Shown: piece after piece, positions 8,148-50,507 of the stretch | Layout: every line of letters begins with the position of its first letter | Position numbering within the stretch: the first letter of the stretch is position 1 | NCBI RefSeq assembly: GCF_004321985.1 | Contig: NZ_SCQN01000005.1 | Location: forward strand, 1 to 64,000 | DNA: 64,000 nucleotides | DNA from: Castellaniella sp. | GTDB taxonomy: Bacteria > Pseudomonadota > Gammaproteobacteria > Burkholderiales > Burkholderiaceae_B | Direction of reading: 5' to 3' | Position numbers and translations under genes: made by a program | The notes under the pieces: generated by a model | What the model was told of the DNA's origin: nothing | Databases searched by the model: none | The model's input: the letters and a program-made list of their open reading frames with translations, nothing else

Positions 8148-9317
8148 TTATTTGGACGGCCGCGCCTGATATTGCGTCATCAGGTCGATGAATTTGTCGA
8201 AGAGCACCAGGATGTCATGCGGCCCCGGGCTGGCCTCAGGGTGGCCCTGGAAGCAGAACACCGGTCGATCGGTGAGCTCAAAGCCCTGGAGCGTACCGTC
8301 GAACAGGGACCGATGCGTCACCTTCGCATTGGCGGGCAGGCTGTCCGCATCCACCGTGAAGCCGTGATTCTGACTGGTGATGAACACGCGCCCCGTCGTG
8401 ACGTCCTGGACCGGGTGGTTGGCGCCATGGTGCCCGGCCTTCATCTTGACCGTGCGTCCGCCAAGCGTCAGGCCCAGGATCTGCTGGCCCAGGCAGATGC
8501 CGAACAGCGGGATGCCGCGATCCAGCACCGCGCGGCAGGTATCGATGGCGTAGTCGCAGGCCGCCGGGTCGCCGGGGCCATTCGACAGGAAGACGCCATC
8601 CGGGTTCTTGGCCAGAATATCGGCCACCGGCATCGTGGCCGGAACCAGCGTGACGTGGCAGCCGCGATCCGCCAGCAGGCGCAGAATGTTGAACTTGATC
8701 CCATAATCGTAGGCCACTACGTGGAATCGTGACTGGTCCGGACGACGGAAACCGCTGCCGAGCTGCCAAGTCCCCTGGGTCCAGGATTCGGCCTTGTTGG
8801 TGGAAACCTTCTGGGCCAGGTCCTGGCCGTCCATCCCGCTGTAGCCGCGCGCGAATTCGACCGCGCGCGCAGTGTCTCCACCCACCAGGATGCAGGCGCC
8901 CTGGGCCCCGCGCTCGCGCAAGATCCGAGTCAGCTTGCGGGTATCGACATCGGTGATCGCCACAATGCCCTGGGATTTCAGGTAGTCGGGCAGCGACTGG
9001 CTGGAGCGGAAGTTCGATACCAGGGCGGGACAGTCGCGAACGACCAGTCCTGCGACCTGGATGCGGCTCGATTCGACGTCTTCGGCGTTGATGCCGGTAT
9101 TGCCGATATGTGGATAGGTCAGCGTGACGATCTGGCCGTTATAGCTGGGATCGGTCAGGATCTCCTGATATCCGGTCATCGCCGTGTTGAACACGATCTC
9201 GGCGACGCTGGTGCCCTCTGCACCAATGGAAATCCCCCTGAATACCGTACCGTCAGCCAAGGCGAGAATTGCTGGGACGTGGCCATAAGGACCCACTGGA
9301 AAGATGGACGGCAGCAA
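8148..9317 (-). CDS. carA: Carbamoyl-phosphate synthase small (glutaminase) subunit CarA
   Basis: Hydrolyses glutamine and channels ammonia to CarB. The 389-residue protein has the small-subunit N-terminal domain ([17 protein letters not shown], then [17 protein letters not shown]) and a class I glutamine amidotransferase domain. The nucleophile Cys lies in [14 protein letters not shown] near residue 273, and the His/Glu pair in [12 protein letters not shown] near 360. The start appears to be TTG at 9317, preceded by GGGG about 8 bases upstream. An in-frame GTG at 9296 is the alternative. First gene of a carA-carB-SDR-uraA unit. Confidence 0.97.
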
Positions 9318-16033: not shown

Positions 16034-16133
16034 AGTGGCGAGCCTGACTTCGGCACTGGTTCTGCACGGCTATGGCTGCTTCGTTCCCGACCTGACCAGG
16101 TTCACCGCCGAACCATGCGAAGGGGCCCGCCAC
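16034..16133 (-). ncRNA. ffs: 4.5S / signal recognition particle RNA (small bacterial type)
   Basis: Minus strand. The hairpin tip carries the near-invariant Ffh-binding segment GGTCAGGTCGGGAACGAAGC followed by AGCC (E. coli: GGTCAGGTCCGGAAGGAAGC then AGCC). The ends pair: AGTGGCGGGCC at the 5' side against GGCTCGCCACT at the 3' side, with one G-U. The length of about 100 nt fits the compact SRP RNA of proteobacteria. It lies directly upstream of dnaX, a common position for ffs. Exact ends are approximate. Confidence 0.92.
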
Positions 16134-39938: not shown

Positions 39939-40874
39939 ATGGAATTCTTCCGCATCCACAAGACCATCCCGTTCATGCGCCCGGCGCTGGTGCTGAACAT
40001 CATCAGTCTGATCACGTTCCTGCTGGCCGTATTCTTCATCGCCACACGCGGCTTTCAACTGTCAATCGAATTCACCGGCGGCACGGTGATGGAAATGCAC
40101 TACGAGCAGGCGGCGCCAGTCGACGACATCCGCTCCGCCGTGGACGCGCTGGGCTACAAGGACTTCCAGGTCCAGAACTTCGGCACATCCAAGGACGTGA
40201 TGATCCGTCTGCCGGTACGAGCCGGCCAAGACACGGCCGCTCAAAGCCAGACCGTCCTGAAGGAACTGCAGAAGGCGCATCCCCAGGTGAAGCTGCAGCG
40301 GGTGGAGTTCGTGGGCCCGCAGGTCGGACAGGAACTGCTGCACAACGCCCTGAAGGCGCTTGCGTTCTGCGTGATCGGCATTCTGCTCTATCTGGCCGTG
40401 CGATTCGAATGGAAGCTCGCCGCATCATGCGCCATCGCGAACCTGCACGACGTGGTGATCATCCTGGGATTCTTCTCCTTCTTCCAGTGGGAGTTCTCGC
40501 TGTCGGTGCTGGCGGGGGTACTGGCCGTGCTGGGCTACTCGGTGAATGAATCCGTGGTGGTGATGGACCGGATCCGTGAAAACTTCCGCAAGCAGCGCAA
40601 GGCGCCAGTGCGCGACATCATCGACGCGGCCATCACGCAGAACATTTCGCGGACGATCATCACCCACGGTTCGACCCAGATGATGGTGCTGTCGATGTTC
40701 TTCTTCGGCGGGCCGACGCTGCACAACTTTTCGCTGGCGCTGACGATCGGGATCTGGTTCGGGATCTACTCGTCGGTGTTCGTGGCGGCCGCGCTGTCGA
40801 TGTGGATGGGGATCAAACGGGAAGATCTGGTGAAGCACGTGAAGAAGGACGGGCCGGAAGTCGAGCTCGGCTGA
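39939..40874 (+). CDS. secF: Protein translocase subunit SecF
   Basis: Partner of SecD, 311 residues, six membrane segments. N-terminal MEFFRIHKTIPFMRPALVLN is followed by the periplasmic motif SIEFTGGTVMEMHYEQ. The C-terminal block has VLGYSVNESVVVMDRIRENF near residue 200 and SRTIITHGSTQMMVLSMFFF near 235. A GAGCAGGA ribosome-binding site precedes the ATG. It is the last gene of the queA-secF unit; the repeat-bearing gap follows. Confidence 0.98.
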   Translation: MEFFRIHKTIPFMRPALVLNIISLITFLLAVFFIATRGFQLSIEFTGGTVMEMHYEQAAPVDDIRSAVDALGYKDFQVQNFGTSKDVMIRLPVRAGQDTAAQSQTVLKELQKAHPQVKLQRVEFVGPQVGQELLHNALKALAFCVIGILLYLAVRFEWKLAASCAIANLHDVVIILGFFSFFQWEFSLSVLAGVLAVLGYSVNESVVVMDRIRENFRKQRKAPVRDIIDAAITQNISRTIITHGSTQMMVLSMFFFGGPTLHNFSLALTIGIWFGIYSSVFVAAALSMWMGIKREDLVKHVKKDGPEVELG

Positions 40875-40917: not shown

Positions 40918-41100
40918 GGGCCGGGGTACAAATGGGGATGCGCCCTACCCGGCGGTCTTCCCTTCGGTCAGACTTCCCGGTCCTTCCTCGTACAGCCGGG
41001 CGTTCACATCCGAGCAGGGTCGGATGTGAACGAATTCCCCGGCTTCCCTTCGGAAGCCACCGGCGCCTCCACGGTTGCATCCCCATTTGTACCCCGGCCC
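40918..41100 (-). repeat. Structured repeat element, copy A (~183 bp)
   Basis: Bounded by a perfect 24-bp inverted repeat (40918-40941 against 41077-41100). Inside, on the minus strand, is a core shared with copy B, including an identical 31-base run (41045-41075). A nested hairpin has a perfect 13-bp stem CGTTCACATCCGA/TCGGATGTGAACG (41001-41013 with 41020-41032) around a 6-base loop, extended by a 7-bp stem AGCCGGG/CCCGGCT (40994-41000 with 41038-41044). A GTCT/AGAC stem also lies in the core. Against copy B the paired positions change together. Family not recognised; it could be a structured RNA gene or a small mobile repeat. Reading frames across it look incidental. Confidence 0.8.
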
Positions 41101-41282
41101 TCTTCTTGTAGGGTGGGTCAGCAAAATCACTGTGGTATCGAGTCGGAAAGATCCCGCCCCCGCCCCTGCATCTGTCTATGCCTTGTTCCCCGGTGTTGGG
41201 TGCGAACTTATGCTTAGCTGTTAGCGCCACAGAACATCCTTTACCCTTGCCACCGCATCTTGGAAATCTCGAGGGACGCAGT
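41101..41282. other. Gene-free spacer between the two structured repeats
   Basis: About 182 bp with no credible coding frame. It includes GTAGGGTGGGTCAGC near 41108 and the AT-richer segment GCGAACTTATGCTTAGCTGT near 41202. I see no inverted-repeat boundary, tRNA or terminator here. With the flanks 40875-40917 and 41468-41595 it makes up the rest of the 721-bp secF-miaB gap. Confidence 0.5.
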
Positions 41283-41467
41283 GGGGTGGTGGATGGGGTG
41301 CCGGGTCGACCGTGGAGGCGCCGGTGGCTTCCGAAGGGAGTGCGGGGAATTCGTCGCCATCCGACCCTGCTCGGATGGCGACGCCCGCGCGGACGAGGAA
41401 GGACCGGAAAGTCCGACCGCAGGGAGGACCGCCGAGTAGGGAGAACCGGCAACCCATCCACCATCCC
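41283..41467 (+). repeat. Structured repeat element, copy B (~185 bp)
   Basis: Second copy, opposite orientation to copy A. The end arms 41283-41304 and 41446-41467 pair over 22 bases with one G-U and one mismatch, although their sequence differs from copy A's arms. The identical 31-base core run is at 41309-41339. The nested hairpin is CGTCGCCATCCGA/TCGGATGGCGACG (41352-41364 with 41371-41383) on GTGCGGG/CCCGCGC (41340-41346 with 41384-41390). The short stem GTCC/GGAC corresponds to GTCT/AGAC in copy A. Three pairs in the long stem, two in the lower stem and one in the short stem differ between copies yet keep Watson-Crick pairing. Confidence 0.8.
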
Positions 41468-41595: not shown

Positions 41596-43065
41596 ATGCA
41601 AGAAACCACCGCGCACCGCCCCGGCGTCATCCACCACGCACCCGTCGCCGCGCTTACTCCGGAATCCGAAATCGCGGCTATCGCCAAAGCCCTGCAGCCC
41701 ACTGAACCCGGTGAGCACAAGAAACTCTTCATCCGCACCTTCGGCTGCCAGATGAACGAGTACGACTCGGAAAAGATGGCCGATATCCTGCAGGCCACCG
41801 AAGGCGTAGAACTCACCCAGACGCCGGAGGACGCCGACATCATCCTCTTCAACACCTGTTCCGTGCGCGAAAAGGCTCAGGAAAAGGTGTTCTCGGATCT
41901 CGGGCGTGTGCAGCACCTGAAGGACAGCAACCCCGACCTGCTGATCGGCGTCGGTGGCTGCGTAGCCAGCCAGGAAGGCGAAGCCATCGTGCGACGCGCC
42001 CCTTACGTGGACGTGGTGTTCGGCCCGCAGACCCTGCACCGGCTGCCGGAGCTCATCGACCGCCGCCGACAGACGGGTCAGTCGCAGATCGACGTCTCGT
42101 TCCCGGCCATCGAAAAGTTCGACGCGCTGCCGCCGGCCCACGTCAACGGACCCACGGCCTTTGTCTCCATCATGGAAGGCTGCAGCAAATACTGCAGCTT
42201 CTGCGTGGTGCCCTACACCCGCGGCCCGGAGGTCTCCCGGCCCTTCGACGACGTACTGACCGAAGTCGCCGATCTGGCTGACCAGGGCGTGCGCGAGGTC
42301 ACTCTGCTGGGACAGAACGTCAATGCCTACCGGGGAGCCACCGGGGATTCAGGCGAAGTTGCCGACTTCGCCATGCTGCTGGATTACGTGCACGACATCC
42401 CGGGTATCGAGCGCATCCGCTACACCACTTCGCACCCCAAGGAAATGACGGCGCGCCTGATCGAGGCCCACGGCCGGCTGCCCAAGCTAGTGCCCTTCCT
42501 GCATCTGCCAGTCCAGGCTGGCAGCGACCGCGTGCTGGGTGCCATGAAGCGCGGGTACACGGTGCTGGAATATAAATCCATCATTCGCCGGCTGCGCGCC
42601 ACTCGGCCGGACATGACGTTTTCGTCGGACTTCATCGTGGGCTTCCCTGTCGAGACCGAGCCCGACTTCCAGAAGACGATGGATCTGGTGCGCGACGTGG
42701 GTTTCGACCAGTCATTTTCCTTCGTTTATTCGCCGCGTCCGGGTACGCCGGCCGCTCTGCTGGTGGACTACACGCCCCAGGAAGTCAAGCTGGACCGGCT
42801 GCACCGGCTGCAATCGCTGATCAATGACCAGGCCGGCGCGATCAGCCAAGCCATGGTGGGCAGCGTGCAGCGGCTGCTGGTGGAAGGCCCGTCGAAAAAG
42901 GATCCACACGATATGAAAGGCCGCACCGAAAACAACCGCATCGTGAACTTTGCAGGTGAACCGCGTCTGATCGGACAAATGGTGGACGTGCGTATCACTG
43001 CGGCGCTCACCAACACGCTGCGCGGCGAGGTACTGACGCGCGACTCCGTGCAGATTCCAGCATGA
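41596..43065 (+). CDS. miaB: tRNA-2-methylthio-N6-dimethylallyladenosine synthase MiaB
   Basis: Radical-SAM methylthiotransferase acting on i6A37 of tRNAs. 489 residues. The UPF0004 domain begins [19 protein letters not shown] near residue 43 with Cys ligands there, in NTCSVREKA near 86 and [11 protein letters not shown] near 121. The radical-SAM triad is CSKYCSFC in [20 protein letters not shown] near 193-212. The TRAM domain is at the C-terminus. An N-terminal extension of about 40 residues precedes the usual start; no ribosome-binding site is evident for the ATG. It overlaps phoH by ATGA. Confidence 0.96.
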
Positions 43066-50237: not shown

Positions 50238-50314
50238 TGGCGGAGCGGACGGGGCTCGAACCCGCGACCCCCGGCGTGACAGGCCGGTATTCTAACCAAC
50301 TGAACTACCGCTCC
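50238..50314 (-). tRNA. tRNA-Asp (anticodon GTC)
   Basis: 77 nt with encoded CCA. The acceptor GGAGCGG pairs with CCGCTCC, the anticodon loop reads CTGTCAC, and the T-loop is GGGTTCGAGCCCC. Close to the E. coli tRNA-Asp sequence. Last of the Ala-Glu-Asp tRNA set. Confidence 0.97.
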
Positions 50315-50333
50315 GCAGCGGTCCAGGTCTCCC

Positions 50334-50409
50334 TGGCGTCCCCTAGGGGATTCGAACCCCTGTACTCACCGTGAAAGGGTGATGTCCTAGGCCTCTAGAC
50401 GAAGGGGAC
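50334..50409 (-). tRNA. tRNA-Glu (anticodon TTC)
   Basis: 76 nt with encoded CCA. The acceptor GTCCCCT pairs with AGGGGAC, the anticodon stem-loop is CACCCTTTCACGGTG, and the T-arm is CAGGGGTTCGAATCCCCT. Nearly identical to E. coli tRNA-Glu in its conserved parts. Middle of the tRNA operon. Confidence 0.97.
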
Positions 50410-50431
50410 CGGACATTCAATGATGGAAATT

Positions 50432-50507
<76 letters not shown>

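Follow-up and report, generated by a model that had tools for sequence, protein, structure and literature searches.

The window that we analysed, a stretch of 64,000 nucleotides of Castellaniella sp. DNA, holds a pair of similar elements, copy A and copy B, lying between two codirectional genes that we take to be secF and miaB and upstream of the latter (Table 1). An earlier reading of the letters alone (the sequence-only reading) had placed two copies of an unrecognised element here, and the sequence, a self-match and the folds bear out both intervals. A 31-base run that it called identical (41045-41075 and 41309-41339) does match, but as the reverse complement and not by direct identity, and the relation between the copies had to be corrected to that of an inverted, head-to-head pair, in which A reads from the minus strand and B from the plus strand. 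Elsewhere in the window lie a bacterial small SRP RNA (16034-16131, minus strand) and three tRNA genes (50241-50507, all on the minus strand).

Table 1. Features of the interval that holds copies A and B, in positions of the window.
Feature	Position	Strand	Basis
Upstream flanking gene (probably secF)	39939..40874	+	ORF
Copy A, whole element with closing stem	40918..41100	-	sequence, self-match, fold
Copy A, closing stem (24 bp), 3' arm	40918..40941	-	
Copy A, core	40945..41072	-	covariance model R1 match, 115.4 bits
Copy A, closing stem (24 bp), 5' arm	41077..41100	-	
Spacer separating head-to-head copies A and B	41101..41282	.	
Copy B, whole element with closing stem	41283..41467	+	sequence, fold
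Copy B, closing stem, 5' arm	41283..41304	+	
Copy B, core	41312..41439	+	covariance model R1 match, 113.1 bits
Copy B, closing stem, 3' arm	41446..41467	+	
Copy B, tail immediately beyond closing stem, GTCTCAAGAACTCAAA	41468..41485	+	
Downstream flanking gene (probably miaB)	41596..43065	+	ORF

The closing stem of copy A is paired at 24 of 24 positions, and that of copy B (22 bp) comprises 20 Watson-Crick pairs, one G-U and one mismatch, both as had been claimed; the stem changes said to distinguish A from B are likewise all present. Each copy has a fold that beats 200 dinucleotide shuffles by a wide margin (z -10.97 for A and -8.23 for B). Tails resembling CTTAAGAAC are present in many relatives, as judged by eye.

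To follow the elements into other genomes, we built a covariance model (R1) from a core alignment of 16 same-genus copies and a second model (R2) from 123 copies. Both were short-calibrated, so the E-values given here are rough, and searches over more than 40 genomes used stricter filters and missed weak copies. R1 matched all 10 same-genus genomes, the own genome included (E up to 0.01), and 35 of 268 genomes of the family, from 15 of 43 genera (E up to 1e-4). In an even sample of the order, R2 matched 73 of 399 genomes and 32 of 158 genera (E up to 0.001), with 68 genomes remaining at 1e-4. Across 369 genomes sampled from the whole class, few of them from Burkholderiales, the own genome alone was matched (E up to 1e-4). 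The covariance search of related genomes that the sequence-only reading had proposed thus returned many further copies in Burkholderiales. Ten element-bearing genomes were searched deeper with R2 (E up to 0.01), and copy numbers counted in this way were 9 in the own genome (A and B among them), 11, 12, 16, 19, 22 and 23 in six others, 61 in genome G041, 63 in G256 and at least 150 in G049 (150 from 150 scored candidates). A same-genus genome, G003 (loci L107 and L311-L313), carries a strongly diverged subfamily, with 8 matches at 31-42 bits to R1 and 12 matches to R2.

Copies A and B belong to a large structured repeat family scattered through Burkholderiales. The family is apparently not yet catalogued, and the open-access papers that we searched held no description of it. 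Plasmid and phage collections, searched at blastn sensitivity with copy B alone as query, yielded no relative.

The structure is directly visible in the aligned copies. A core of 29 pairs is paired in 96.5% of cells across 123 copies, so further genomic copies keep the pairing. Sliding the partner by 1-3 columns lowers pairing to 32-51%, and 574 cells show change on both sides compared with 38-95 in the slid controls; none of 500 shuffles reaches any of five measures. The 42 order-level matches, fitted to R2, are 91.5% paired with 225 double-change cells, and again 0 of 500 shuffles is as high on any of the five measures; in this set pairing falls to 72% of cells in helix 2. The fitting of both alignments to the model's structure works in favour of that structure; in both, the covariation is very strong and exceeds the controls.

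Each element is laid out as a closing stem, then a branched region, then an apical arm. The closing stem spans at least 20 columns in 110 of the 121 copies with both flanks, is perfect in 43 of these 110 and is missing in two copies, and its arms are similar inside one genome and dissimilar between genera. An apical motif, TGAG/CGAGT, which could form tandem G-A pairs, occurs in 69 of the 123 family copies under a strict pattern (99 under a looser one) and in 40 of the 42 order-level copies; A and B are without it and carry another apical hairpin instead. The basal motif GAAGGGA is found in 92 of 123 family copies vs 3 of 42 at order level, which indicates that the two sets do not have the sequence of the basal part in common, and a CGAGG-AG motif occurs in 4 of the 42. 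With the layout and the apical motif shared and the basal motifs rarely so, how closely the groups are akin is uncertain. By eye, many order-level relatives (loci L349-L372, around 1640-1700) have, immediately 3' of the closing stem, a stretch rich in T and another long hairpin, which resembles TTTGGTTACTTTCTTT...AAAGAAAGTAACC. One copy in the own genome (L110, 684-832) has neither the 3' part nor the closing stem and continues into a terminator-like hairpin.

We then asked which strand folds by comparing the two kinds of imperfect pair that a wobble on one or the other strand would leave. Across the closing stems, scored symmetrically, there are 89 G-U and 31 A-C pairs, alongside 83 mismatches of other kinds. 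In distinct contexts flanked by paired bases the counts are 60 G-U, 13 A-C and 22 others, and in those not flanked by pairs they are 25, 16 and 53. The model's own pairs give 75 G-U to 8 A-C, or 40 to 8 once the first helix is removed, in an alignment that favours wobble. The G-U excess indicates that the plus-oriented strand is the one that folds or is under constraint; as far as the sequence evidence goes this strand is the constrained one, and RNA and single-stranded DNA are alike compatible with it.

The head-to-head geometry of A and B recurs across the family. In G049, 11 of 11 loci, each fetched on one match (11 of 12 listed), have a partner in the minus-then-plus arrangement, and 13 pairs among the copies listed there each consist of a longer and a shorter subtype. 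In the order-level loci, adjacent copies no more than 1.5 kb apart form 15 pairs, of which 13 are minus-then-plus, one is plus-plus and one minus-minus. A further set of loci (A2) has 16 of 18 pairs minus-then-plus, one plus-minus and one plus-plus; it includes loci selected for a visible pair, and a minus-minus pair in L277 was dropped for a missing flank. The head-to-head halves in A2 lie 111-383 bp apart between cores. Units of G049 share up to 877 bp yet differ in their outer flanks (L082 and L092 share 742 bp at 91%), and by eye they have similar inverted outer ends. Single copies can also be far apart: at L109 of the own genome two of them (2128-2257 and 9066-9195) stand minus-then-plus about 7 kb apart, and the flank of one holds a piece that by eye resembles the closing arm of the other.

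Genes around 123 copies were called with a home-made gene caller, some of the loci being orthologous and not independent. In all of these copies any overlap with a called gene is 60 bp or less. The 90 gaps that hold elements comprise 46 convergent, 38 codirectional and 6 divergent ones, compared with 7, 22 and 22 among 51 gaps of 150 bp or more that lack an element; the copies are intergenic, favour convergent gene ends and are rare between divergent genes. Of 30 loci, 3 have elements adjoining miaB. In other genera, too, there are copies next to this gene, which could reflect vertical inheritance, and no element lies beside miaB at the same-genus loci L316 and L322, where by eye there are ordinary short terminator-like hairpins. 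In G037 (Candidimonas sp. SYP-B2681) three copies lie inside the secF-miaB interval (L102, 1843-5074), and the genes between them, presumably SnoaL-like, TerC-like and SRPBCC-like, look as if they were cargo between halves. The flanking genes showed no enrichment for a mobiliser among the 25 commonest of the 138 Pfam families found in 100 flanking proteins; these 25 are ordinary (ABC transporters, PPIases, MlaC and similar).

How the elements change was visible in eight orthologous locus pairs of sister species, recognised by their flanks, which diverge by about 1-6%. Direct observations include in-place inversion as well as orthologous loci that hold a copy in one genome and lack it in another. 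In two of the eight pairs (L298/L292 and L302/L305) the element is inverted in place; in L298/L292 it is 98% identical, and alignment of the flanks requires the opposite orientation. Position and orientation are kept in the other six (in one pair, for one half only), which implies that movement is slow within the genus. Copy A with the spacer is present in L105 and absent in the orthologous L293, and the remaining cores differ. The comparison of orthologous loci yielded neither a clean empty site with exact junctions nor an insertion bearing a clean target-site duplication. The orthologous loci L296 (2879-3016) and L301 (2558-2701) have near-identical flanks and closing stem but different types of apical arm in the segment from GAAGGGA to ACGAGG, which suggests conversion among copies.

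A stem-by-stem comparison of the closing stems in seven orthologous pairs (186 base pairs, gapped columns dropped) found 10 double Watson-Crick changes vs 9 one-sided G-U steps, together with 2 one-sided A-C steps and 3 others. Four of the 10 double changes are transversions, and a transversion double change cannot go by way of a G-U intermediate. So many independent double changes would not be expected at a flank divergence of about 1-6%. The 11 G049 copies show 14 double-change cells and 8 one-sided ones. Template switching during replication can perfect the arms of a hairpin and so yield compensatory changes, as set out in PMC8794818, and in these repeats it would also flip the loop. Coupled change of this kind explains much of what the orthologues show.

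The coupled transversions and in-place inversions leave the argument from compensatory change to selection weaker than it first appears. The sequence-only reading had taken compensatory change by itself as the signature of a selected RNA or single-stranded DNA structure; in that form the inference is not supported, since such changes arise here as transversions (4 of 10) and beside inversions (2 of 8 pairs) in orthologues. Selection on the fold is supported instead by the wobble asymmetry (60 G-U vs 13 A-C) and the order-wide branched layout.

Several described repeats share traits with the elements. ERIC, NEMIS/Correia and MITE-like repeats are non-autonomous palindromic intergenic repeats, and the elements are all three of these things; unlike ERIC and NEMIS/Correia, they have a multi-helix core that covaries and closing arms that resemble one another inside a genome and differ from genus to genus. 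At integron attC sites one strand folds and the structure is kept with the stem sequence free, as in the elements, but the element loci that we looked at held no cassette arrays. HEARO/omega RNA is structured, repeated and of similar size, and the elements differ from it in giving no Rfam match at gathering score. The comparison with Rfam 15, which covered the window and 25 fetched loci, produced no match on the elements at that score, and two sub-threshold E-value scans gave chance-level matches only, so no known family of that collection covers them, HEARO/omega RNA included. The sequence-only reading had offered an undescribed structured RNA family or a non-autonomous mobile element; a small structured repeat without a protein of its own holds, and identity as an RNA does not follow.

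REPs are described as intergenic, multi-copy sequences that form head-to-head dimers and fold on one strand (PMC3733652, PMC3116915), and PMC3733652 defines them as palindromes of 20-40 bp with a GTAG or CGTC tag. The elements resemble REPs, BIMEs and REPINs in being intergenic, in having tens to hundreds of copies, head-to-head dimers and hairpins, and in lacking their own protein. They differ in that A and B form a branched fold of about 184 nt, in place of a single hairpin of 20-40 bp, which in most copies is the length of the closing stem. By eye, no GTAG tag is shared at the foot of the elements, and CGTC follows the closing stem in some copies, not all. The BRE repeat, as described in PMC3110155, which also names ERIC and NEMIS/Correia-type repeats, is a GC-rich, mostly intergenic repeat of Alcaligenaceae and other Betaproteobacteria, 75-91 bp long and often in tandem with varying copy number. 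The elements are likewise mostly intergenic, GC-rich and betaproteobacterial, but they are mostly inverted dimers and about 184 nt long, which sets them apart from the BRE as described there.

Profile PF01797, for the Y1 transposase of IS200/IS605 or RAYT type, was absent from 18 of the 20 genomes tested. The two that have it, G003 and G029, are both element-bearing, which makes 2 of 12 element-bearing genomes and 0 of 8 genomes without a listed copy; it was not found in G049, G256, G041, G043, G258, G037, G236, G000, G001 or G002. The link to IS200/IS605 that the sequence-only reading had raised is not borne out by these absences. A RAYT or other Y1 protein as general mobiliser was rejected because the domain is missing from 10 of the 12 element-bearing genomes, among them G049 with its 150 or more copies.

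On balance we lean towards reading A and B as the two halves of a head-to-head unit of a non-autonomous, REPIN-like structured repeat family, Burkholderiales-wide and of a new architecture. Each half would be a branched one-strand fold of roughly 100-160 nt; in most copies a closing stem of 20-40 bp seals it, and this stem would keep its pairing even as its sequence drifts. The unit would behave like a REPIN or BIME, settling in intergenic gaps, convergent ones above all, and multiplying in some lineages. A trans-acting enzyme may recognise the folded strand and spread the unit; the search for a mobilising protein (PF01797 in 20 genomes, Pfam families of 100 flanking proteins) found none. Selection on the fold, together with template switching at the replicating hairpin, could keep the stems near-perfect. 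More tentatively, and on the doubtful side in our estimation, the repeats could represent an undescribed class of mobile nucleic acid, with a dimeric, branched, strand-specific fold, spreading along the chromosomes of Burkholderiales by way of a dedicated recognition enzyme and a single-stranded DNA or RNA intermediate, in which template switching re-perfects the stems and flips the core.

The family reaches at least 150 copies within a single chromosome and has members across the order; it has no match in Rfam 15 and no description that we found in the open-access papers searched. Since some orthologous copies are seen in inverted orientation, the family offers a natural test of how much template switching, as against selection, contributes to compensatory changes, and it may point to a novel enzyme for the recognition of folded single strands.

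Other readings account for parts of the evidence. A structured non-coding RNA family, with both halves transcribed away from the spacer and working as RNAs, would show the G-U/A-C asymmetry and a branched fold with conserved unpaired positions, and head-to-head halves with cores 111-383 bp apart, as in A2, would suit a two-way promoter. We consider this rather unlikely: a single-stranded DNA fold would give the same wobble asymmetry, copy number varies widely among genomes, orthologous intervals can be element-free, and in most copies the tail beyond the stem is by eye A-rich and without a T-run. A scan of 119 copies for promoters of the sigma-70 type alone found no excess around the elements, the mean best score being 7.08 upstream vs 7.00 in the reverse direction. 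Mobilisation by a RAYT (Y1) transposase, which would make the elements a REP/REPIN family in the ordinary sense, would fit their head-to-head, intergenic, many-copy, one-strand character, as given for REPs (PMC3733652, PMC3116915), as well as the presence of elements in both PF01797-positive genomes. With the domain in 2 of 20 genomes and missing in the copy-rich G049, G256 and G041, and with size and branching unlike REPs of 20-40 bp, we regard it as very improbable.

The hairpins might also be function-neutral palindromes, made and perfected by replication template switching alone with the fold unselected. The mechanism is described in PMC8794818, and the coupled transversions in orthologous stems and the in-place inversion in 2 of 8 locus pairs are what it would leave, but it should affect the two strands equally and produce about equal numbers of G-U and A-C, where 60 and 13 are seen, and it leaves the order-wide branched layout and motifs unexplained; we hold it to be highly unlikely. 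Scarcely more credible is a role as two-way transcription terminators or insulators at gene ends, to which the enrichment in convergent gaps, the depletion in divergent ones and the great stability of the hairpins would point. Terminators have no need of a branched core, conserved loops or a single-strand asymmetry, most copies are by eye without a T-run, 38 of the 90 element gaps are codirectional, and the pair in the window sits upstream of miaB, where the element-free L316 and L322 of the same genus make do with short hairpins of ordinary terminator-like appearance. We also considered the idea that cores may insert into the loops of pre-existing terminators; copy A and the terminator of L316 have GGGCCGG/CCGGCCC in common.
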